In this document: one piece after another, positions 5,533-13,703 of the stretch | Layout: each line of letters starts with the position of its first letter | How positions within the stretch are numbered: the stretch's first letter is position 1 | Assembly (NCBI GenBank): GCA_002713555.1 | Contig: PATG01000136.1 | Location: 5,001 to 21,785 of the forward strand | Reading direction: 5' to 3' | Source: Planctomycetaceae bacterium | GTDB lineage: Bacteria; Planctomycetota; Planctomycetia; Pirellulales; Lacipirellulaceae | Length of the DNA stretch: 16,785 bases | Notes under the pieces: model-generated | What the model saw: only the letters and a program-made list of their open reading frames with translations | The model's database searches: none | What the model was told of the DNA's origin: nothing | Position numbers and translations under genes: made by a program

Positions 5533-5961
5533 TTTTGGGCGACGTGTCCCGTGCAAACCGCCAACCTCCGGAAGCTTCAGCAGCGGCTGACAAAGCTGTC
5601 CTAAGGTGCGGATATTCAGCTGGTCAGTATTACCGTGGCCCCGGATCACGACACTACGGAAGTAGTAGCCGCCTATGCAGATCAAGCCGGTGCGGAAACA
5701 GAGCAATGGCACTTCCTGACAGGCTCCCGCAACGAAATATGGGAGTTATGCAAGACGGGCTTTAAACTGGCTGTCGATGATGCGCCTCCTCAGGCAAACA
5801 CACTTATTCTGCACAGCGACCGGTTCATTCTGGTTGATCGACAGGGACGCATTCGAGGCTGCTTTGAGGGCATGTCAGAGGAAGGTATTGCGGCAACCGG
5901 CGCAGGCCTTGAGCGTTTGCTGGAACAGGCCGCGCAGCGGACGAACATAAACACACACTAA
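5533..5961 (+). pseudogene. decayed SCO1/SenC family copper chaperone
   Basis: Reading one frame across a TAA at 5602-5604 gives CPVQTANLRKLQQRL before the stop and GADIQLVSITVAPDHDT after it, which is the continuous core of a SCO1/SenC protein. The C-terminal half is well kept: WHFLTG, LHSDRFILVD (the copper-ligand His is in HSDRF) and GRIRGCFEG. The family ligates copper with CxxxC plus this His and helps assemble the CuA site of cytochrome oxidase. Here only the second Cys of CxxxC survives in frame (WATCP), and the leader and N-terminal strands are not recognisable. Restoring one G at about 5535 would read TYCWATCPVQ with a normal CxxxC, so a single-base loss near 5535 is an attractive cause. 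A GTG at 5635 could start a 108-residue C-terminal piece, but it would lack both cysteines. The 3' end overlaps the convergent MerC-domain gene by three bases. Confidence 0.75.
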
Positions 5962-6557
5962 CCCAGGCAGCATGCGTTTTCCTGACAACGGCAGGATTTG
6001 CGATGGTTCGAGACGTGCCCCACGACGAGCAACAAACCACCCAAGGGTGTCACAAAAGGTGTGATCGCCAACGAATTGCCACTTTCCAATGCTGCCGTAG
6101 TGATGTTCTGGTCAGCTTGACACAGCGAGCATTCAGCTTCGTTACATTGGGGTGTTCCCTTGAGTTCGACTCCTTCGGGCGTACAAGCGGCACAGCAACC
6201 TCCTTCCAATGCGAAAGCAGCCGTCGTAAGTAGTAGTAGACCGGCTGCACCCCACATTGCTGGCATGAAACTGCGATGCTTTCGCCATCCTGGCACAAAC
6301 GCACTGGCAGCCAGGGCAATACATAGCACTGCCATCCAACGGTGAAATTCTTCTCCGGCAAGCCAGCCAAGCCCCAATGCTGGCAAATAAGCCAGCACCA
6401 TGGGCATGGCCGCGCAGTGGATTGCGCAGCCAATCGAGGCGATCATTCCGGCCCAATCGGCCCATGTCTTGTGTATCTGATTATCAACAACGGTTCGAAT
6501 GGGCAGCAGTTCGTCGTTCATGTCTTTCCTTAGGTTCCGAGCTTTCATCTTGGTCAT
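5958..6557 (-). CDS. MerC-domain inner-membrane protein
   Basis: About 199 residues with four hydrophobic segments. The first carries WADWAGMIASIGCAIHCAAMP, whose GCAIHC cysteines match the paired Cys of MerC-type mercury/metal transporters. The loop before the last segment and the tail are Cys-rich (EGGCCAACTPEG, CSLCQ, SCRCQENACC), which suggests metal binding on a soluble face. I chose ATG 6557 because a full AAGGAGG lies eight bases before it. ATG 6521 also has a good site (AAGGA, five to six bases away) and would give 187 residues. A longer frame to 6617 begins where transcription should start and is unlikely. A perfect Fur-type palindrome lies 72-88 bases upstream, so metal-dependent repression is likely. 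MerC-domain genes often sit beside Zur/Fur genes in other bacteria, so a role in zinc or another metal is as likely as mercury. Confidence 0.85.
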   Translation of the reverse strand: MTKMKARNLRKDMNDELLPIRTVVDNQIHKTWADWAGMIASIGCAIHCAAMPMVLAYLPALGLGWLAGEEFHRWMAVLCIALAASAFVPGWRKHRSFMPAMWGAAGLLLLTTAAFALEGGCCAACTPEGVELKGTPQCNEAECSLCQADQNITTAALESGNSLAITPFVTPLGGLLLVVGHVSNHRKSCRCQENACCLG

Positions 6558-6621
6558 GTCGCGAGCCTCCTTGGCCGGACTCCGTTGCCAGACTGTGGGG
6601 CGCAGAAATTCATGCAAAATA

Positions 6622-6645
6622 AATATACTTGCAATTTAATTGCAA
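6622..6645 (-). promoter_or_regulatory. Fur-family operator palindrome with -10 element, MerC-domain gene
   Basis: TTGCAATTTAATTGCAA at 6629-6645 is a perfect 8-1-8 palindrome whose core is TGCAA-N5-TTGCA. On the minus strand, TATATT (6622-6627, five of six matches to a -10) follows directly, so a bound repressor would cover the promoter. The format is the 7-1-7 dyad of Fur-family boxes. The TGCAA-N5-TTGCA core matches, as I remember it, the Nur box of Streptomyces. A second near-copy lies at 13187-13203. Confidence 0.65.
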
Positions 6646-6713
6646 CATACCGAACGCGTCACTAACTTGCAAGAGCTGCCAAGAGTGAGGATCGTACCAT
6701 CAGCGAACTCCCA

Positions 6714-9143
6714 CTACTCCCCAGACGGAATTGCTTTGGGTTGCATCAAGAATTCTGACAGACGTTGCTGGAACTCGGTCCAGGCGCTCCCCTGCAAGTA
6801 CGGCTCCTGGACGACTCGCACTGATGCATCGCGTCGAAGGTCGCGGGTTATTTTTCGACGACAGGTGACAATTTCAATCCGCGCATTGCCAAGAGTATTG
6901 AGCCGTTCTTGGCTGAATTGGCCTGCATCAAGGCGGCCGAGGTACATGCTGCCAACGATGTTGGGATCGAGCACCTCCTGGTCAACCACGCTATCCGATT
7001 CCTTGAGTCGAGCGCAATTCTCGATCAGTGTCGACCTATCGAGTCTGCCCTGCTTCCAGCCCAGGAGACCCAACATGGGAAAATTTGTTTTTTTGTTGGC
7101 GAGGAGCAGGTCCGCGTCTGGATAGGCTTGCAGAAAACTTGCAGCGATCATGCGGAAGTGCGACTCGGTAAGCTGATACATGGGCAGCCACTGGCAGAAC
7201 ACGCCGCCGTCTCGCAGCGCTCGGCGAGTCGCCTGAAAATGCTCGACGCTAAACAGCCGACCCTCACCCGCCCCGTAGGGTCGGTACAAGTCTCCTACGA
7301 TGACGTCGAAGCGATCCTTCGACGCGGCAATGTATGTCCGTCCGTCTTCAACAACCACCTGGGCCCGAGGATGTTTGTAAAGATCTCGATTGAACTCACT
7401 AAAGTGCTTCTCTGCTGTTCGTGAAACGAGCGAGGAAATTTCAACCGCCGTTAGCTGGCATGTCTCGGAATAGTCGAGGGCCGCCCCTGCGGATATGCCT
7501 GTTGCCACCCCAATGCAGCATACTTCTGCGGGCTGAGCGTGGAGGAGCAATGGCAGCAGGACTTCCCGGCGTTCGTCACGAACGCTGCCACTGCTTCCGA
7601 GCAGGTACTGATTGTTGAGCAGTATCCCTCGGCCGCGAGAGGGGCTTTCGACAACCAGCAAGACACCGTCCCGCCCGAACTCCCTGGCCAACTCTCGGTA
7701 TTGCACCGTTGTCCGCGGGCTGAGGTAGGGAATCCGCGACTGAAGCCATCCGCCCAGGGCAATCGGGATGGCTATCACAGCGCACGCTGCGGCCCACCTG
7801 AGAACGGATGGTCTATGCCATGGTGTCATAAGTAAAGCAAAACCAAGGGCGTAAAGCACTCCCACAACGGCGAAACCTTGATAGATGCCCCACGTGGGCA
7901 AAATCACAAGTTGGGCGATTTCAGCGCCCAGGATGCCGCCAACCCCGTTGGCGGCAAGCAGGTATCCGAAACGCTTTCCCTGGGCGTCGCCGCCTTCACC
8001 TCCGGACCACGCCAAGACAATGGGCAATACCAAGCCCCCCACCAGCAGAGCCGGCCCAACGGTGACCAGGGCAATACTGCATACCGAAAGCAGGAACTGG
8101 GTCGTGGTCGCCAGGTGGTCACCCGCCATCCCTGCTAAGTGAGGTACGTCCATGAGCTGCTGAGTACGCTGGTAAAGAAATTTTGGCGCCAACGAAGCTG
8201 CTATGGAAGCCGCAACCAAGGCTCCCAGCAGCCACGCCCGAGGTGTCCACCAACTCCGCAGCAGCCAAGGCGTCGCGATTGCCGCGACGGCCAAAAGCAA
8301 AATGACCGAGGCCAGCACGCCCACGGTCGCTTGAAAGGATGAGGGAACAACCATACTGATCATCCGAATGGCCAGGACCTCCAAAGCGAGCATCGCCACG
8401 CCGGAGAGGAATGATAAAGCAAGTGAACCGACAGGACTGAGCGGAATTGTCAACTTGGACGGATCATTGCGTTTGGCTTTCGCGCGTTTTCGTTCAGCTC
8501 GTGTCGAAGTCCTTGCACCTTCGGCTTGAGGCCAGCGACTCAGTCGCCAGGCGCCCAGACCAACAGCCAGATTGACAACGATTGCCGCTGCCATGCACCC
8601 CTCCACGCCCAAGGGTTCCAGGAGAAAGCTGCTGCTCACCAAAACGCCAACAACCCCGCCGAGCGTATTGCCTCCGTAAAGCCAGATGCCTTCGCGACGC
8701 ATGGTTCCATTTCGGCGCAGCACGGCAGCCGCGAAGAAAGGAAGCGTCATTCCCATGGGGACTGCCGGTGGCAGGACGACTGCGGCGCTCAGGAAGGTCT
8801 TGATCAGTGCTCCCTGCCAGTCCATCAATCGTTCTGGTCCCAGCGCTGGCCAAATCCCATCGCTCCACCAGGGCAGACAAAGTGCCGGAACAGCAAGCAC
8901 CGCGATGGCCAATTCGCAGAGCGCCACGGCAAGCCACGGCCGCTTGATGCGAGGCAGCACGCGGGCCGCCAGCAGACCCCCCAGGGCGAGGCCAAGAAAG
9001 AAACAACCGAAAACACGGGAAGTCGCTTCGCCCGTGGCGCCGAGCAAATCAACGAGCCGACGCGTCCACAGGAGTTCATGCGAAAGTGCGGCCGCGCCGC
9101 TTAGCACCGCGAGAAACAGAGCAATGGATAAAGTTGACTTCAT
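6714..9143 (-). CDS. polytopic membrane protein fused to a spermidine-synthase-like domain
   Basis: An 809-residue protein. Residues 1-200 hold about six hydrophobic segments, then a basic linker (ARTSTRAERKRAKAKR) follows, and 232-465 hold about seven more. From about 470 on it is a soluble class I SAM-type domain of the spermidine-synthase superfamily. This has CCIGVATGISAGAAL (542-556) as the nucleotide loop, AVEIS (566-570), VVVEDGRTYIA (596-606) and DVIVGDLYRPYG (613-624) in family order. Proteins of this 'fused MFS/spermidine synthase' type are common in Planctomycetota and have unknown substrates; they may aminopropylate or methylate something at the membrane. The ATG overlaps the stop of the thioredoxin-lipoprotein gene (ATGA), so the two are translationally coupled. 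A role in modifying the upstream surface proteins is possible but is inference. Confidence 0.87.
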   Translation of the reverse strand: MKSTLSIALFLAVLSGAAALSHELLWTRRLVDLLGATGEATSRVFGCFFLGLALGGLLAARVLPRIKRPWLAVALCELAIAVLAVPALCLPWWSDGIWPALGPERLMDWQGALIKTFLSAAVVLPPAVPMGMTLPFFAAAVLRRNGTMRREGIWLYGGNTLGGVVGVLVSSSFLLEPLGVEGCMAAAIVVNLAVGLGAWRLSRWPQAEGARTSTRAERKRAKAKRNDPSKLTIPLSPVGSLALSFLSGVAMLALEVLAIRMISMVVPSSFQATVGVLASVILLLAVAAIATPWLLRSWWTPRAWLLGALVAASIAASLAPKFLYQRTQQLMDVPHLAGMAGDHLATTTQFLLSVCSIALVTVGPALLVGGLVLPIVLAWSGGEGGDAQGKRFGYLLAANGVGGILGAEIAQLVILPTWGIYQGFAVVGVLYALGFALLMTPWHRPSVLRWAAACAVIAIPIALGGWLQSRIPYLSPRTTVQYRELAREFGRDGVLLVVESPSRGRGILLNNQYLLGSSGSVRDERREVLLPLLLHAQPAEVCCIGVATGISAGAALDYSETCQLTAVEISSLVSRTAEKHFSEFNRDLYKHPRAQVVVEDGRTYIAASKDRFDVIVGDLYRPYGAGEGRLFSVEHFQATRRALRDGGVFCQWLPMYQLTESHFRMIAASFLQAYPDADLLLANKKTNFPMLGLLGWKQGRLDRSTLIENCARLKESDSVVDQEVLDPNIVGSMYLGRLDAGQFSQERLNTLGNARIEIVTCRRKITRDLRRDASVRVVQEPYLQGSAWTEFQQRLSEFLMQPKAIPSGE

Positions 9144-9586
9144 GGGGCGGCTAGTACACCGTTCAACTCCGCTAAAAGCAGATCACCGGACGTCGGATAG
9201 CTCTGGCGAAACACTTCCTTTCCTGCGTCGAAGGCGACATAGGTGGGGCAAACGCTGATTCCAAATTGTGTAGCCAAGGAGCGCTCGTAAGTTAAATTGA
9301 CTCGGCAAACCTGCAAGCGGCCCGCGCTATTCTTGGCCAGCATGTCGATCTGCTGACGCATCTGGTCGCACCGATAGCAGCCTGTCGGCACGCTAAACTC
9401 CACCAGTATTGGCGACTTAGCGCTGGAAACACTTTCAGATAATTCTTTGGCTGTGACGTAAGGAACGGCTTCTCGCTGCGGCAGCGACTCCGTTCTGTGC
9501 TGCTGGCCGCAACCGCCTAGTGCTAAGCAGTAGCACAGACATCCTAGCATTGACAGTCGCTGCAAGAAAGATATCGGAATAGCCAC
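9140..9586 (-). CDS. thioredoxin-like lipoprotein
   Basis: A 148-residue protein started at GTG 9586, which has GGGAG six bases upstream. A longer frame to 9640 would be read through a stable hairpin and lacks a ribosome site. The N terminus is a lipoprotein signal with lipobox LALGGC (Cys26). The rest is a thioredoxin fold: ILVEFSVPTGCYRCDQM carries the CxxC pair (CYRC, 70-73), and SVCPTYVAF carries the cis-proline. It should be an anchored extracytoplasmic thiol-disulfide protein. The CYRC motif is not the reducing CGPC type. It sits between a PEP-CTERM gene and the spermidine-synthase fusion, which it overlaps by four bases, so it probably serves redox chemistry of one of the cysteine-bearing exported proteins nearby. 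Confidence 0.85.
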   Translation of the reverse strand: MAIPISFLQRLSMLGCLCYCLALGGCGQQHRTESLPQREAVPYVTAKELSESVSSAKSPILVEFSVPTGCYRCDQMRQQIDMLAKNSAGRLQVCRVNLTYERSLATQFGISVCPTYVAFDAGKEVFRQSYPTSGDLLLAELNGVLAAP

Positions 9587-9601
9587 CTGAGTCTCCCAAA
9601 G

Positions 9602-9635
9602 CTCTGCGGCGCCCCGAATGTGGAGCGCCGCAGAG
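9602..9635 (-). terminator. strong intercistronic GC hairpin
   Basis: CTCTGCGGCGC (9602-9612) and GCGCCGCAGAG (9625-9635) form a perfect 11-bp stem with a 12-base loop. It lies after the first PEP-CTERM gene and just before the ribosome site of the thioredoxin-lipoprotein gene. Only three T residues follow on the transcribed side. It may be a partial terminator or an mRNA-stabilising element that sets higher expression of the upstream surface proteins, rather than a full rho-independent terminator. Confidence 0.6.
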
Positions 9636-9669
9636 TGCAAATGATATGAACACTAGGAATTGGTTCTTC

Positions 9670-10413
9670 CTATTGCTCCAGCAACTTTCGCCGTCGCCTG
9701 GCCAGGCCGAATACAACCGCAGCAGCTCCAATCATGGTGAGCGACATGGGCTCGGGGATCTGTCCGGCAAATGCTTCGACACCTGCTTCAAAAGCCTCTT
9801 CGCCCAGGCCAAAGTTTTGGACGATGAAAAAGCGATCGGAATCCGCAATCCCTGGTGCATCCGACGACAGGCTAATCAAGACCGCGTAAGCGCCAGTCGC
9901 CGGCGAACCGGGAAGGGGCTCCAGGGTCCAATCGAGATCACTGTGGAATTCTCCATTGGGTTCCGCATCTGCAATACGATTGCGGGTCAAGGCCGGGTTG
10001 GGAGTGGAGAATACGCCTAGCTGCGATCCACTGGTGCCGCTAACCAAGGTATCGGGAACACCAAGACCAACATTCTCGATCCTTATCTGGGTACCCGCTG
10101 CGACCGGCGCAATGCTGGCCCCATTCCAATACTGGAGAGGACCATGCACGTTGTAGACAATTTCATCGCCCGGATTGAGATTTCCGAACTCGGGTATCTC
10201 CGAAGCAAAACCCGGCTCGGAGGTCCTTTGCAAGTCAATTCCAGTCGTTTCAAAATCTCCCTCAAAAATGCGTCCTTCGGACCCAAATTCCACTTCAATC
10301 TTGCCCGACTCATAGCCGAATTCGACGTCGCTATGGCCGAACGCAGTGCCAAGATTGGCAAGGGCTAGCGTAGCCACAAAGAAACAGGTCATAACACAAA
10401 CCAAATGTCTCAT
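9670..10413 (-). CDS. PEP-CTERM surface protein, His-bearing paralogue 1
   Basis: A 247-residue exported protein: signal peptide to about residue 26, then a beta-rich body, then a PEP-CTERM sorting tail (IPEPMSLTMIG at 219-229, hydrophobic stretch, ARRRRK). The tail means recognition by an exosortase encoded elsewhere and surface or extracellular placement. The body is paralogous to the next gene upstream: GHSDVEF at the mature start (His27), GFASEI, PGDEIVYNV, LQYWNGAS, GEFHSDLDW (His157) and FGLGEEAFEAGVEAFAG all recur in the partner. AGGAG lies nine bases before the ATG. The conserved His residues and the adjacent Fur-type control suggest a metal-linked role. It recalls the Zur-repressed All3515-type PEP-CTERM proteins, a comparison made from memory. 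Confidence 0.82.
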   Translation of the reverse strand: MRHLVCVMTCFFVATLALANLGTAFGHSDVEFGYESGKIEVEFGSEGRIFEGDFETTGIDLQRTSEPGFASEIPEFGNLNPGDEIVYNVHGPLQYWNGASIAPVAAGTQIRIENVGLGVPDTLVSGTSGSQLGVFSTPNPALTRNRIADAEPNGEFHSDLDWTLEPLPGSPATGAYAVLISLSSDAPGIADSDRFFIVQNFGLGEEAFEAGVEAFAGQIPEPMSLTMIGAAAVVFGLARRRRKLLEQ

Positions 10414-10555
10414 TAGTCCATACTCCTATATATTAGTAATAAAATGGATATTCAAGTGCTCATTAATAGCACCTGCAATTATGTCTTATTGCCGAATTGT
10501 CATCTTAGCTCACGGGCTACTCCTTTCATATTTCTTGCTAACCAACGAAAACCAG
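10414..10555. other. intergenic region between the two PEP-CTERM genes
   Basis: These 142 AT-rich bases separate the two paralogous genes. They contain a small inverted repeat (GTGCT-N7-AGCAC, about 10457-10473) and the ribosome binding site of the downstream gene. I see no copy of the TGCAA-N5-TTGCA operator and no convincing promoter: a TTGAAT/TATATA pair exists, but transcription would begin after the ribosome site. Read-through from upstream is the simplest reading. Confidence 0.4.
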
Positions 10556-11476
10556 TTAGCCGGACATAATTTGGAATCGAGGCTTTGAACCAAACAGTAG
10601 TGCCATGCCAAGCAGGCAGAGCAATGCCGTTTGTGGCTCAGGAATTCCTACAGTAGACTGCAGCAGCGGAGGCGGATTGGTGCCATAGTTCGTTTGCCAG
10701 TCGCTTAAATCACCAGCGCTAAGCGGATCGGGAGACAAACCTTGCTGCCAAAGCAGGTAGTCCTCGCCATCCACATCACCATCGAGGTCAAAATCTCCCT
10801 CTTGGCCTGCCAGCAGATCCCCAAAGGCATCCACTGCCTGCTCAAAACCTGTACTGTTCAAGCCGAAATTGAAGGCAAAGATAAACGGATCCGAGACGTC
10901 AACACCCAGGGCATTGGTCCTCAGCCGCAGTTTGATTCCAAAGGCCCCAAAATCTGCAGGGGGTGAGGGTGACGGAAAAGGATTAGGATACAGACGCCAT
11001 TGCAGGTCTCGATGAAAATTCCCGGCTGCATCTGCGTTATCAATGCGGTTCTTCGGAGGAACCTCACTACCGAGTTGCTGGCCAGAGTTTTCGTCCACGG
11101 TGGTCAGGGGAACCGTGGGAGGGGAAGGGTTATTCGTGATCTCAATGGAATAGCCGCTGGGTGGAGCGGTCACGCTGACCCCGTCCCAGTAGAGGAGATC
11201 ATCAATCACGTCGTAATATATCTGGTCCCCAGCGCCGATTCCCAAGCCGTTGATTACCTCCGAGGCAAAACCAGGTAACGTGGCAAAATGTTGTTCGATG
11301 CCGGTCGTTGGAAAAAAGCTACCGAAAACTAAATCCGTCTCTCCTGCTGGGATCTGAACGTTAATCTTGTTGTTAACATAGGAAAACTGGACGTCTAGGT
11401 GACCATACGCGCAGCTCATCCACTCTCCTGGGAAGAGCCCACCGATCAGAAAAAATGTTATCAGTACTTTTTTCAT
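10556..11476 (-). CDS. PEP-CTERM surface protein with dockerin-like tail, His-bearing paralogue 2
   Basis: A 306-residue exported protein. After a signal peptide to about residue 25 comes GHLDVQF (His26), then GFASEV, AGDQIYYDV, LLYWDGVS, GNFHRDLQW (His155) and FNFGLNSTGFEQAVDAFGD, all shared in order with the downstream paralogue. Residues 226-265 (GDFDLDGDVDGEDYLLW ... GDLSDWQTNYG) are the calcium-loop, dockerin-like module common ahead of planctomycetal sorting tails; the paralogue lacks it. The end is GIPEPQTALLCLLGMALLF followed by SKPRFQ, so the usual cluster of arginines is poor. Its AGGAG lies within the last codons of the DUF1559 gene, whose stop is two bases before this ATG, so the two genes are one transcription unit. 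Confidence 0.82.
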   Translation of the reverse strand: MKKVLITFFLIGGLFPGEWMSCAYGHLDVQFSYVNNKINVQIPAGETDLVFGSFFPTTGIEQHFATLPGFASEVINGLGIGAGDQIYYDVIDDLLYWDGVSVTAPPSGYSIEITNNPSPPTVPLTTVDENSGQQLGSEVPPKNRIDNADAAGNFHRDLQWRLYPNPFPSPSPPADFGAFGIKLRLRTNALGVDVSDPFIFAFNFGLNSTGFEQAVDAFGDLLAGQEGDFDLDGDVDGEDYLLWQQGLSPDPLSAGDLSDWQTNYGTNPPPLLQSTVGIPEPQTALLCLLGMALLFGSKPRFQIMSG

Positions 11477-11478
11477 CG

Positions 11479-12558
11479 CTAAAAATCTCCTATCAAATCT
11501 TCACCATTTCGACTCCCTAGCGCCCACCACACGTTGGCATCGATCTGATCATTCACGAACCTTGTGTGCCCATCTGCCAGCAGCAGTTGGATACCACCCG
11601 GATGATTGCTGCTGGGAGTGATCGCGAAGTCCCCATGGCTGTTAAGAAGTACATAATGACAGTGGTTGGTGTTGGGATTCTTCAAGTGCATATAAGTCGC
11701 CCCGGTGCGCGTCCATCCCGAGATCCAGGCCCGGCCAAAATAGGCCGATTGGCCAAGATCGGCATGCGTCAGCGATGAGCTACACTGACCGGCCATGTCG
11801 GCCAAAGTTCGCGCTGCGCTGGTGATGTGAAAAGACCGTAACACATCAGGCGAGGCCAAGACCTCATCGGGGGTGTTCTTGGTTTGAATCAGCCGTTCAG
11901 TCACTGCTGCGGTGTTCGAAGTCCCATCGGTAATCATCTTGATGCTGATTTTCCCTGTCGGATGCCAATCTACGTAATCACCTGGATTCTCAAGCGAGAT
12001 GAATCCGTTGTAGTCCCCGGGAGTCTCGCGCTCGCCTTGATAACCAGTCGCACGCGTTGGCCACCCCGCATTCGCTGCATAGCTGTCACTCGCAGGGTTT
12101 GCCGAACCTAACACTAGCGAGTTGTCGTGGGATACGTTGTCGGAAGGACACAACAAGCCAGCAATCACCGTCGCCGCCGCTGCGGCATTTGGGTGACTGG
12201 CAAGGATGGGTATCCCACTGGTACAGGAGTCCGACATGTTTACGCTCAAATCAATGGATTCGTACAGGGTCTGTTGTTCTATGTAGGGAAGCAGCGGGAC
12301 TATCCAACTGTAAAAACCCGACTCGCAACTACTGCCGACGTCTTCGCCAGCCGCAGTCTGACTCGCCGGAAAATACCCCATTGCGGCGTGGTAATTCTGT
12401 AAAGCGAGTCCAATTTGCTTCTGGTTGTTCAGGCATTGCGTACGCCTCGCTGCTTCTCGAGCGGCTTGAACGGCCGGCAACAGAAGCGCGATCAGCACGC
12501 CAATGATGGCAATAACGACCAACAACTCAACGAGAGTAAAACCGGCAACTCGGCGCAC
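11479..12558 (-). CDS. DUF1559 prepilin-like protein
   Basis: A 359-residue protein starting at GTG 12558, with GAGG eight bases upstream. The N terminus RRVAGFTLVELLVVIAI is a type III (prepilin) leader: cleavage would fall after Gly6, leaving an N-terminal Phe and Glu5 of the mature pilin helix. The helix is followed by PAVQAAREAARRTQCLNNQKQIGLALQNYH and a body ending in LLLADGHTRFVND, the conserved DG-type C-terminal motif of DUF1559. The family exists in dozens of copies per planctomycete genome, and its job is unsettled; it is probably a pseudopilin-like cell-surface protein. It is one of the best taxonomic markers here. Its coupling to a PEP-CTERM gene two bases downstream suggests the two act or are exported together. 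Confidence 0.9.
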   Translation of the reverse strand: MRRVAGFTLVELLVVIAIIGVLIALLLPAVQAAREAARRTQCLNNQKQIGLALQNYHAAMGYFPASQTAAGEDVGSSCESGFYSWIVPLLPYIEQQTLYESIDLSVNMSDSCTSGIPILASHPNAAAAATVIAGLLCPSDNVSHDNSLVLGSANPASDSYAANAGWPTRATGYQGERETPGDYNGFISLENPGDYVDWHPTGKISIKMITDGTSNTAAVTERLIQTKNTPDEVLASPDVLRSFHITSAARTLADMAGQCSSSLTHADLGQSAYFGRAWISGWTRTGATYMHLKNPNTNHCHYVLLNSHGDFAITPSSNHPGGIQLLLADGHTRFVNDQIDANVWWALGSRNGEDLIGDF

Positions 12559-12664
12559 CGAACTGTCCTCATGCGAATCTTGTAAAGGAAATCGCTATCA
12601 AGTGAGAAAGTGCCTGCCTATGCCCTGATGGCAATCGACAAGTCACGACAATACCTTAAGCATC

Positions 12665-13132
12665 TTAGGCTGCCAAAAGGCTAGGCGGACCGCGCTCAGA
12701 AGTAGAAGTACGATGCAGGATCAGAGAAGGGGAATCGTAAGGGGTAGCCTCTATTTCCAAAAAGGGTAGCGATACAATAGGATCGCTATGAATAGCGGAG
12801 TACCCTAAGCTGAGCTGGCCAATCAACGCGCACGCTACGCAATCGGCATCTCCGCGTGACGACCATGCCAGCCAAACTTCTTGATCCGATGCCTCGAAAG
12901 GCTCCGAATGTTCCTGCTGTTGCCCATCCGGGCAATGGTGATGGCAGCAACGACTTGTTTTGCCCGTCGCAGTGCCCCTGCCCCCAGCACTGCAGCCATG
13001 ATCACTGTAGCCATGATCACTGTGGCCATGATCACTGTGGCCATGATCATGCAGCGCATGCCCAAAGATGGCAACCACCGCATAGAGCGCTGCTAAACCC
13101 AGGGAAGTCGTCTTCTGCAAGTTCAGATACAT
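12665..13132 (-). CDS. exported His/Cys-rich putative metal-binding protein
   Basis: 155 residues with a signal-like hydrophobic start (SLGLAALYAVVAIFG). A His-rich repeat of the form DHGHS/DHGYS/DHGCS follows at about 29-47, then RCCHHHCPDG at 61-70 and a DCVACALIGQ pair of cysteines (98 and 101). The C terminus has RGPPSL, a feature I associate with small DUF2946-like copper/metal-linked proteins; that assignment is weak. The composition strongly suggests binding of a soft or transition metal outside the cytoplasm. No good ribosome binding site is seen, but the ATG sits about 36 bases after the predicted transcription start of a promoter overlapped by a Fur-type palindrome. It is the first gene of the run leading to the DUF1559 and PEP-CTERM genes. 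The His repeat is encoded by a 15-bp tandem repeat. Confidence 0.75.
   Translation of the reverse strand: MYLNLQKTTSLGLAALYAVVAIFGHALHDHGHSDHGHSDHGYSDHGCSAGGRGTATGKTSRCCHHHCPDGQQQEHSEPFEASDQEVWLAWSSRGDADCVACALIGQLSLGYSAIHSDPIVSLPFLEIEATPYDSPSLILHRTSTSERGPPSLLAA
12996..13050. repeat. 15-bp tandem repeat, about 3.7 copies
   Basis: CCATGATCACTGTGG repeats at 12996-13010 (one base different), 13011-13025, 13026-13040 and, cut short, 13041-13050. It lies inside the His-rich gene and encodes successive DHGHS-type pentapeptides on the minus strand. Because the unit is a multiple of three, copy-number change by slippage would keep the frame and vary the number of His residues. Confidence 0.9.
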
Positions 13133-13174
13133 AGCCGAAGGAACAAGGATGGAGAACTACCAAACAACTGTGCA

Positions 13175-13203
13175 ATTCTATACCTGATGCAAATCAATTG
13201 CAA
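13175..13203 (-). promoter_or_regulatory. promoter overlapped by Fur-family operator, His-rich gene
   Basis: ATGCAAATCAATTGCAA (13187-13203) matches the MerC-gene palindrome at 14 of 17 positions and keeps the core TGCAA-N5-TTGCA. On the minus strand, TTGCAA (13198-13203) is a fair -35, and TAGAAT (13175-13180, five of six) lies exactly 17 bases downstream as a -10. The dyad therefore covers the -35 and most of the spacer, a classic repressor position. The gene's ATG is about 36 bases beyond the expected transcription start. Confidence 0.68.
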
Positions 13204-13235: not shown

Positions 13236-13264
13236 AAACCCTAGCAATCCATCGATTGGCTAGG
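13236..13264 (-). terminator. hairpin terminator after the Fur-family gene
   Basis: CCTAGCAATC (13240-13249) pairs with GATTGGCTAGG (13254-13264) through a four-base loop and one bulged base, overlapping the Fur gene's stop codon. On the minus strand it is followed by GTTTAT. The T-run is modest, but the position, just before the next promoter, fits a terminator that separates the regulator from the His-rich gene. Confidence 0.55.
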
Positions 13265-13703
13265 CTGTGCACCGACCGCAATGTCCCCTCAACAACACCT
13301 CCGTGATGGTCCCCAGCTTGTCCCGCCGAGGACCACGACTGGGGCTGATTGCTACCTTGAAGTCGTTGAGGCACAAGAGTTTACCGCAATCGACACACAT
13401 GAAGTGAGGATGCTCCGGCGAGTCGGCATCCTCCATCTGTCGCAGCTCAAACCGCCGGATTTGGTCGCCCAGGTCAAGACGTATGAGCAATTTCGACTCC
13501 GCCAACTCGTTGAGACATCGAAACAGGGTCGATTGGTCAAATCCCCCATCCTCCAGCGCCCCGACAACTTCGGCATGACTTTGCGGAGTTCTAGCAAGGG
13601 CAAGCCTTTTCAGTACGGCAACCCGTGCAGCGGTCGCACGTAAACCGGCCTCCCGCAGAATACGCTTCGCCCAATTTGTGTCTCGTAAGGTAGTAGATGG
13701 CAC
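13260..13703 (-). CDS. Fur-family metal-responsive regulator (Zur- or Nur-like)
   Basis: A 147-residue protein of standard Fur length, starting at GTG 13703 with AGGAG nine bases upstream. The winged-helix part holds LRATAARVAVLKRL, SHAEVVGAL and the recognition helix DQSTLFRCLNELAESKLL. Metal sites are visible. The structural zinc cysteines are CVDC (103-106) and CGRC (142-145). A regulatory site like that of Fur would be His43, Glu86, His98 and His100, all present. Fur-family proteins dimerise and, when metal-loaded, bind 7-1-7 dyads to repress uptake or storage genes. Two such dyads sit in front of metal-linked genes in this window, so this is the likely repressor. Which metal it senses cannot be told from sequence; context slightly favours zinc. 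Confidence 0.88.
   Translation of the reverse strand: MPSTTLRDTNWAKRILREAGLRATAARVAVLKRLALARTPQSHAEVVGALEDGGFDQSTLFRCLNELAESKLLIRLDLGDQIRRFELRQMEDADSPEHPHFMCVDCGKLLCLNDFKVAISPSRGPRRDKLGTITEVLLRGHCGRCTA

Follow-up and report, generated by a model that had tools for sequence, protein, structure and literature searches.

Several described systems resemble the locus analyzed here. The zinc uptake regulators (Zur) have boxes for which a 7-1-7 format is reported, and their known sensory sites are of the N2OS type (PMC6103462). In Escherichia coli Zur, the sensory ligands are His77, Cys88, His96, and Glu111 (PMC4219657). It is established for other bacteria that COG0523 and QueD paralogues occur behind Zur sites (PMC2770081). 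Anabaena has a PEP-CTERM zinc exoprotein under Zur control, ZepA (All3515), which is reported also in the Planctomycetes-Verrucomicrobia-Chlamydiae (PVC) superphylum, near genes for FUR-family proteins, COG0523, 6-carboxytetrahydropterin synthase, ZupT, and DksA (PMC10957091). The box published for the nickel regulator Nur is tTGCaa-N5-ttGCAA (PMC3919588). Here we describe two palindromes in a 16,785-nucleotide stretch of DNA from a Planctomycetaceae bacterium (contig PATG01000136.1, positions 5,001 to 21,785; hereafter the window). Judged by sequence, the adjacent Fur-family protein very probably binds both as its operators and would be the zinc uptake regulator of this planctomycete.

The first palindrome, TTGCAATTTAATTGCAA (operator 1; 6629..6645, no strand assigned), has an 8-1-8 form in which the centre base alone is unpaired, and it precedes a minus-strand gene for a MerC-domain protein. 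The second, ATGCAAATCAATTGCAA (operator 2; 13187..13203, likewise unstranded), is identical to the first at 14 of 17 positions. It lies between the gene for the Fur-family regulator, which is immediately upstream of it, and a minus-strand gene for a His/Cys-rich protein. An earlier note on this DNA had described both sites, a common TGCAA-N5-TTGCA core with no further noncoding copies, and their placement ahead of genes for MerC-domain and His/Cys-rich exported proteins with a Fur-family gene beside the second. All of these features were found as described (Pfam scores of 80.4 bits for MerC and 39.6 bits for FUR). The core occurs exactly twice in the whole window (6630-6644 and 13188-13202), compared with a mean of 0.04 after shuffling, and at least two copies are present in 1 of 200 shuffled windows. 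Copies with up to two mismatches number 13 versus 9.8 expected, which is background, and therefore the exact copies alone are informative within the window. The one-mismatch copies at 7129, 9970, 10229, and 15231 all fall within coding sequence and were rejected. On the minus strand, operator 2 supplies the TTGCAA of a promoter-like TTGCAA-17-TAGAAT arrangement; matches of this type near operator 2 are at background (5 versus 4.5 expected).

The box recurs near relatives of the Fur gene, which were examined in two locus sets. The first comprises 29 loci from genome contigs scanned with an alignment of the Fur protein, 27 of which were usable; L028 and L029 (26-32% identical) were left out of the count made upstream of fur. 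The second, not selected for the box, holds 30 loci drawn from 148 genomes within the class. When a spacer of 5 was compared with the 15 other spacers from 0 to 15, the first set yielded 31 distinct sites at spacer 5 versus 15 at all other spacers summed, and the second yielded 12 versus 2. With the MerC and ZigA loci added to both sets, the totals are 56 and 17. The 56 spacer-5 sites and the two window sites (58 sequences) define the extended consensus ACWTGCAATTNAATTGCAWGT.

An exact core is located within 400 base pairs (bp) upstream of fur in 13 of the 27 first-set loci, whereas after dinucleotide shuffling the mean is 0.03 and no shuffle exceeds 1. By identity, these comprise 7 of 8 loci at 60% or higher, 4 of 13 at 50-60%, and 2 of 6 below 50%. 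In the second set, 10 of 30 loci carry the exact core; no fur gene could be placed in L061 or L077, the former of which entered the tally through the spacer test. At L052 and L053, exact copies follow fur and precede ZigA, and a one-mismatch copy precedes fur. Because several loci overlap (L001/L050, L002/L083, L004/L092, L005/L041/L093, L006/L045/L081, L010/L038/L098, and L027/L048/L049/L082), gene counts were made by genome place rather than by locus.

The specificity of this association was examined in a control panel of 20 genomes, all picked for a box seen near fur. These genomes hold 49 matches to the FUR family, and 30 of the corresponding loci were examined. All seven loci of the subfamily carry the core, as expected from the way the genomes were picked. 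The core was found at none of the 23 other, higher-scoring FUR-family loci, which include at least one from each genome. The box thus goes with this regulator rather than with Fur proteins in general. These data also bear on the possibility that the protein senses iron, manganese, or peroxide in the manner of Fur, Mur, or PerR and controls broad metal stress genes as well. The models and structures that the window protein matches best by whole-domain score are indeed those of ferric Fur and PerR. However, every genome of the panel has another FUR-family gene with a higher score, and the core was found at none of the 23 such loci examined. Furthermore, inspection by eye of regions around fur, ZigA, MerC, and motif copies showed no iron or manganese uptake gene following a box; no dedicated search for such genes was made. 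We consider a sensor of this kind very unlikely.

The genes that follow the box point instead to zinc. Among 10 full-length panel matches to the zinc-chaperone GTPase ZigA, seven have a box before the gene or its short operon, and these seven score 574.9-605.1 bits against a curated cut-off of 600. A ZigA zinc-metallochaperone GTPase at L042 (596.1 bits, cut-off 600) has a box 56 bp ahead of its open frame. At L048, three boxes lie between a gene for a ZIP transporter (103 bits) and a divergent ZigA gene (574.9 bits), and more precede a fur gene and a DUF1559 gene. In genome G133, fur and ZigA stand in tandem with two boxes between them. Boxes are found 102 and 321 bp ahead of a QueD gene that COG0523 follows, and another ∼250 bp ahead of a DksA/TraR gene. 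The core is also upstream of three of the four MerC genes found across the panel. As is typical of Zur, then, the palindromic box stands upstream of zinc-homeostasis genes in these preselected genomes. Six of the 20 genomes have a gene for nickel superoxide dismutase (Ni-SOD), and the core was found at 0 of these 6 loci; the direct Nur targets iron superoxide dismutase (Fe-SOD) and nickel transporters were not searched. Because ZigA, ZIP, QueD/COG0523, and DksA genes lie behind boxes and Ni-SOD loci lack the core, zinc appears to be by far the best reading of the metal and is the most likely one.

A competing reading of the metal is nickel: The protein would be Nur-like, its operator a Nur box, and its regulon a source of nickel. 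PDB chain 3eyy, which we take to be Nur, scores 28.9 bits with the window protein, between the Zur chains 2o03 (30.1 bits) and 3mwm (25.2 bits). Both window sites match the published Nur box, and their core equals its consensus (PMC3919588). However, the Ni-SOD result and the kinds of genes that the box precedes (zinc chaperone, ZIP, QueD, DksA, and COG0523) make a nickel regulator very unlikely.

Genome-wide counts of the motif are less decisive. In 11 of the 20 box-bearing genomes, TTGCAAN5TTGCA gives 97 strand-hits versus 36 for the reversed pattern. Across the class, 54 genomes have a Fur homologue and hold 153 WTGCAAN5TTGCAW sites (reversed-pattern control, 65), and the 94 genomes without one hold 85 (control, 43). 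Motif counting as proof was dropped as weak on the basis of these class-wide values. Because the counts are about two to three times the reversed control, a lone copy is no evidence, whereas a well-placed copy is; the information is carried by the position of the box and not by its mere presence. The twofold class-wide excess implies that many single copies are due to chance, but the specificity for one spacer, the position ahead of fur, and the lack of the core near other members of the Fur family render it hardly credible that the two window sites arose as a pair by chance or are bound by an unrelated regulator.

Assignment of the box to a zinc-sensing Fur-family regulator must be weighed against several contrary points. 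The fur gene of the window has no exact core upstream, unlike many of its relatives, and the same is true of 14 of the 27 subfamily loci within 400 bp, of which 13 are at 45-57% identity and one is at 64%. The class-wide motif counts discriminate only weakly between genomes that have the Fur homologue and those that lack it, given the roughly twofold excess in both. No box was found within the stretch examined for 3 of the 10 ZigA genes (L085, L095, and L096) or for one of the four MerC genes. By its sequence, the operator is that of a nickel regulator. Finally, the MerC, ZigA, FUR-family, Ni-SOD, and choice-of-anchor M counts and those in 11 genomes come from genomes picked because fur had a box nearby, and tblastn was run on loci taken from around fur, ZigA, MerC, or a box. 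Because genomes and loci were preselected, the panel and tblastn counts represent consistency and not whole-genome enrichment.

A shared asymmetric variant with one mismatch (TTTGCAARAGAYTAGCA-like) is found at a similar place, ∼245-390 bp ahead of fur, in six first-set loci (L011, L013, L014, L015, L017, and L019). This variant of more distant orthologues is possibly a drifted operator.

On balance, the earlier proposal of Fur-family operators and a local metal regulon gains support from spacer specificity, conservation, and absence of the core near other Fur-family genes. The expectation that the core is conserved upstream of orthologues holds for fur and for relatives of the MerC, His-rich, and DUF1559 genes. 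Its resemblance to the Nur box, mentioned in that note, agrees with the published consensus (PMC3919588), and the 7-1-7 dyad taken there as a Fur-family format is reported for Zur boxes (PMC6103462). The worry that the motif might be common at random positions proved partly justified: Counts exceed the reversed control two- to threefold, and they discriminate weakly. The note had left the metal open; new here are the choice of zinc, the controls for specificity, an extended consensus, and the content of the regulon.

The regulator itself (13260..13703, minus strand; proposed zinc sensor) belongs to a well conserved planctomycete subfamily, as seen in 35 aligned homologues that are 61-86% identical to it. 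Its predicted model has the Fur fold expected of a Zur protein, with an N-terminal winged helix and a C-terminal dimerisation domain. Residues H43, E86, H98, H100, C103, C106, C111, C142, and C145 are invariant in all 36 rows of the alignment, and four of these (C103, C106, C142, and C145) correspond to the Cys4 structural site of Zur, whereas H43, E86, H98, H100, and C111 are candidate residues of the sensory site. In a profile alignment, C111 is placed opposite a glutamate of Pseudomonas aeruginosa Fur chain 1mzb, presumably E100. Of 57 subfamily loci examined, 39 were caught by pattern, and 38 of these have the cysteine. By spacing from the CxxC pair, C111 matches E. coli Zur Glu111, and the hinge strand keeps E86. 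From these correspondences, we propose that the S and O ligands may be swapped in the sensory site (C111 and E86, respectively). The presence of C111 would fit an N2OS sensory site as in Zur, which has two N, one O, and one S ligand between the domains.

The window genes can be read as a probable regulon. The first gene behind operator 2 (12665..13132, minus strand, as are all those that follow) encodes the His/Cys-rich exported protein, which has an N-terminal signal-like stretch and no family match. Next come genes for a DUF1559 pseudopilin (11479..12558) with a prepilin-type N-methylation signal and an H-X9-DG C-terminus, and for two exported proteins with GHxD and FHxDLxW motifs. One of these is PEP-CTERM-like (10556..11476; weak PEP-CTERM matches, aligned with the other protein and with a relative in L001), and the other is a PEP-CTERM protein (9670..10413; TIGR02595, 18.6 bits, cut-off 16). 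They are followed by genes for a thioredoxin-like protein (9140..9640; PF00085), called a lipoprotein by eye, and for a fused membrane protein resembling the major facilitator superfamily (MFS) and spermidine synthases (6714..9143; NF037959, 61.4 bits, cut-off 40). Gaps between the genes from 13132 down to 6714 are -4 to 142 bp, and these genes probably form one operon behind operator 2. The gene for the MerC-domain membrane protein (5958..6617; PF03203), whose true start is probably downstream of 6617, would be served by its own operator 1. Convergent with MerC, the plus strand at 5635-5961 encodes the C-terminal half of a protein of the SCO1/SenC copper-chaperone family (31.5 bits, profile positions 67-133 of 134). 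This gene may be broken, with its upstream part in other frames.

When the window genes were searched by tblastn against the collected loci, relatives of several of them were found close to boxes. A relative of the His-rich gene in L001 (40% identity) has a box centre 67 bp upstream, compared with ∼63 bp in the window. Two boxes lie upstream of each of the MerC relatives in L027 (65%) and L006 (49%), and one lies 54 bp before the start of another in L080 (43%). The DUF1559 relative in L032 (65%) has a box 166 bp upstream and is followed by a PEP-CTERM homologue, and a PEP homologue in L037 has a box ∼65 bp upstream. In L027, a relative of the spermidine-synthase-like gene (37%) stands beside a box and near a Fur gene. 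Thioredoxin homologues in L085 and L092 are directly upstream of ZigA.

The two PEP-CTERM-type proteins share, by alignment, a common GHxD start and FHxDL, and the predicted model of the 9670..10413 protein is beta-rich with a predicted local distance difference test (pLDDT) score of 89.5. Relatives that follow the DUF1559 gene in L001 and L048 score 86.1 and 96.8 bits with choice-of-anchor M (NF038134; cut-off 55) and exceed the cut-off of TIGR03769; the anchored-repeat transporter models TIGR03773 and TIGR03772 stay under theirs. No match to NF038134 at its 55-bit cut-off is listed for the window proteins, whose tails are of the PEP-CTERM type. In the panel, all five match rows for choice-of-anchor M fall on two contigs (two genomes) with box-bearing fur clusters. 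The ZepA motif H-X2-9-H-F/Y-H was found in neither of the two window proteins, nor in 27 alignment rows and three further relatives. By analogy we infer that the GHxD proteins work like ZepA, although they are not ZepA because they lack its motif.

Other exported proteins were observed in the collected loci. The minus-strand products of L084:41-541 and L086:43-492, both with a box upstream, are His-rich (HHDHHCCHSHSH) and built like the window His-rich protein, yet give no tblastn match to it. Exported proteins with a similar YY[IV]GID start are encoded at L083:403-1281 (minus strand) and L087:2848-3660 (plus strand), adjoining MerC and ZigA, respectively. Three box-bearing regions (L034:837-3739, L010:17203-19980, and L008:922-3836) each contain a cassette that encodes a thioredoxin-like protein, an FtsX/MacB permease, and an ABC ATPase, with families tested for L034 and judged by eye for L010 and L008. 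This cassette is a candidate zinc-linked FtsX-type transporter.

The best explanation for these observations is regulation by direct binding of Zur, with zinc as its ligand and with repression rather than activation as the outcome. When zinc is sufficient, the zinc-loaded dimer would bind the 7-1-7 palindrome overlapping the promoter and block two units: the MerC gene and the probable operon that extends from the His-rich gene to the spermidine-synthase-like gene. The latter would comprise the His-rich, DUF1559, two GHxD PEP-CTERM, and thioredoxin proteins as well as the spermidine-synthase-like membrane protein. When zinc is short, the repressor would be released, and the putative surface zinc-binding proteins and MerC membrane carrier would be made.

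A more elaborate scenario, toward which we remain somewhat skeptical, is that the locus represents a distinct planctomycete zinc-acquisition machine, with a Zur of rearranged site, a nickel-box operator, surface capture, inward relay, and import by MerC. In this scenario, the DUF1559 pseudopilin and exosortase-sorted GHxD surface proteins would capture external zinc, and the His-rich and thioredoxin-like proteins would relay it inward. The MerC family is named for mercury uptake; here its member would carry zinc across the inner membrane. In the sensory site, C111 would replace the usual carboxylate, with E86 retained in the hinge strand. If true, this would provide a function for a DUF1559 protein, and the sequence of a Fur-family operator would not predict the metal.

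Zinc sensing and collection in planctomycetes are hardly described in the open-access papers searched, in which we found no description of this box or of MerC, DUF1559, or choice-of-anchor M as members of a zinc or Zur regulon. With the box defined, anyone can list the zinc regulon of planctomycete genomes, and testable roles are provided for the little-understood DUF1559, PEP-CTERM, and MerC-related proteins. A probable zinc regulon whose operator equals the box of a nickel sensor also cautions against using a motif to name the metal.

Comparison with known systems reveals a mixture of likenesses and differences. Choice-of-anchor M proteins (NF038134, TIGR03769) resemble the window proteins in the GHxD start and C-terminal His motif and, through the L001 and L048 relatives, by score; they differ in that the window proteins carry PEP-CTERM-type tails. 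The ZepA system likewise has Zur-linked exported PEP-CTERM proteins, but its H-X2-9-H-F/Y-H motif is absent from the window proteins and tested relatives, and PMC10957091, the closest paper found, reports other motifs and no box of this sequence in the text consulted. The Nur system of Streptomyces coelicolor has the same operator consensus, whereas the planctomycete box has no link to Ni-SOD (0 of 6 loci) and precedes zinc genes instead. From the Zur regulons of E. coli, S. coelicolor, Anabaena, and Caulobacter crescentus, the planctomycete system differs in the sequence of its box and in a regulon rich in little-studied surface proteins and MerC. It differs also in placing C111 at the glutamate position of P. 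aeruginosa Fur and E. coli Zur (Glu111), with the E86 carboxylate in the hinge strand. No ZnuABC gene was identified, and no search was aimed at ZnuABC. The planctomycete system shares with these Zur regulons a Fur-family regulator with a Cys4 site, a palindromic box of the 7-1-7 type, and a regulon that includes COG0523 GTPase, QueD, and DksA genes together with zinc transport.

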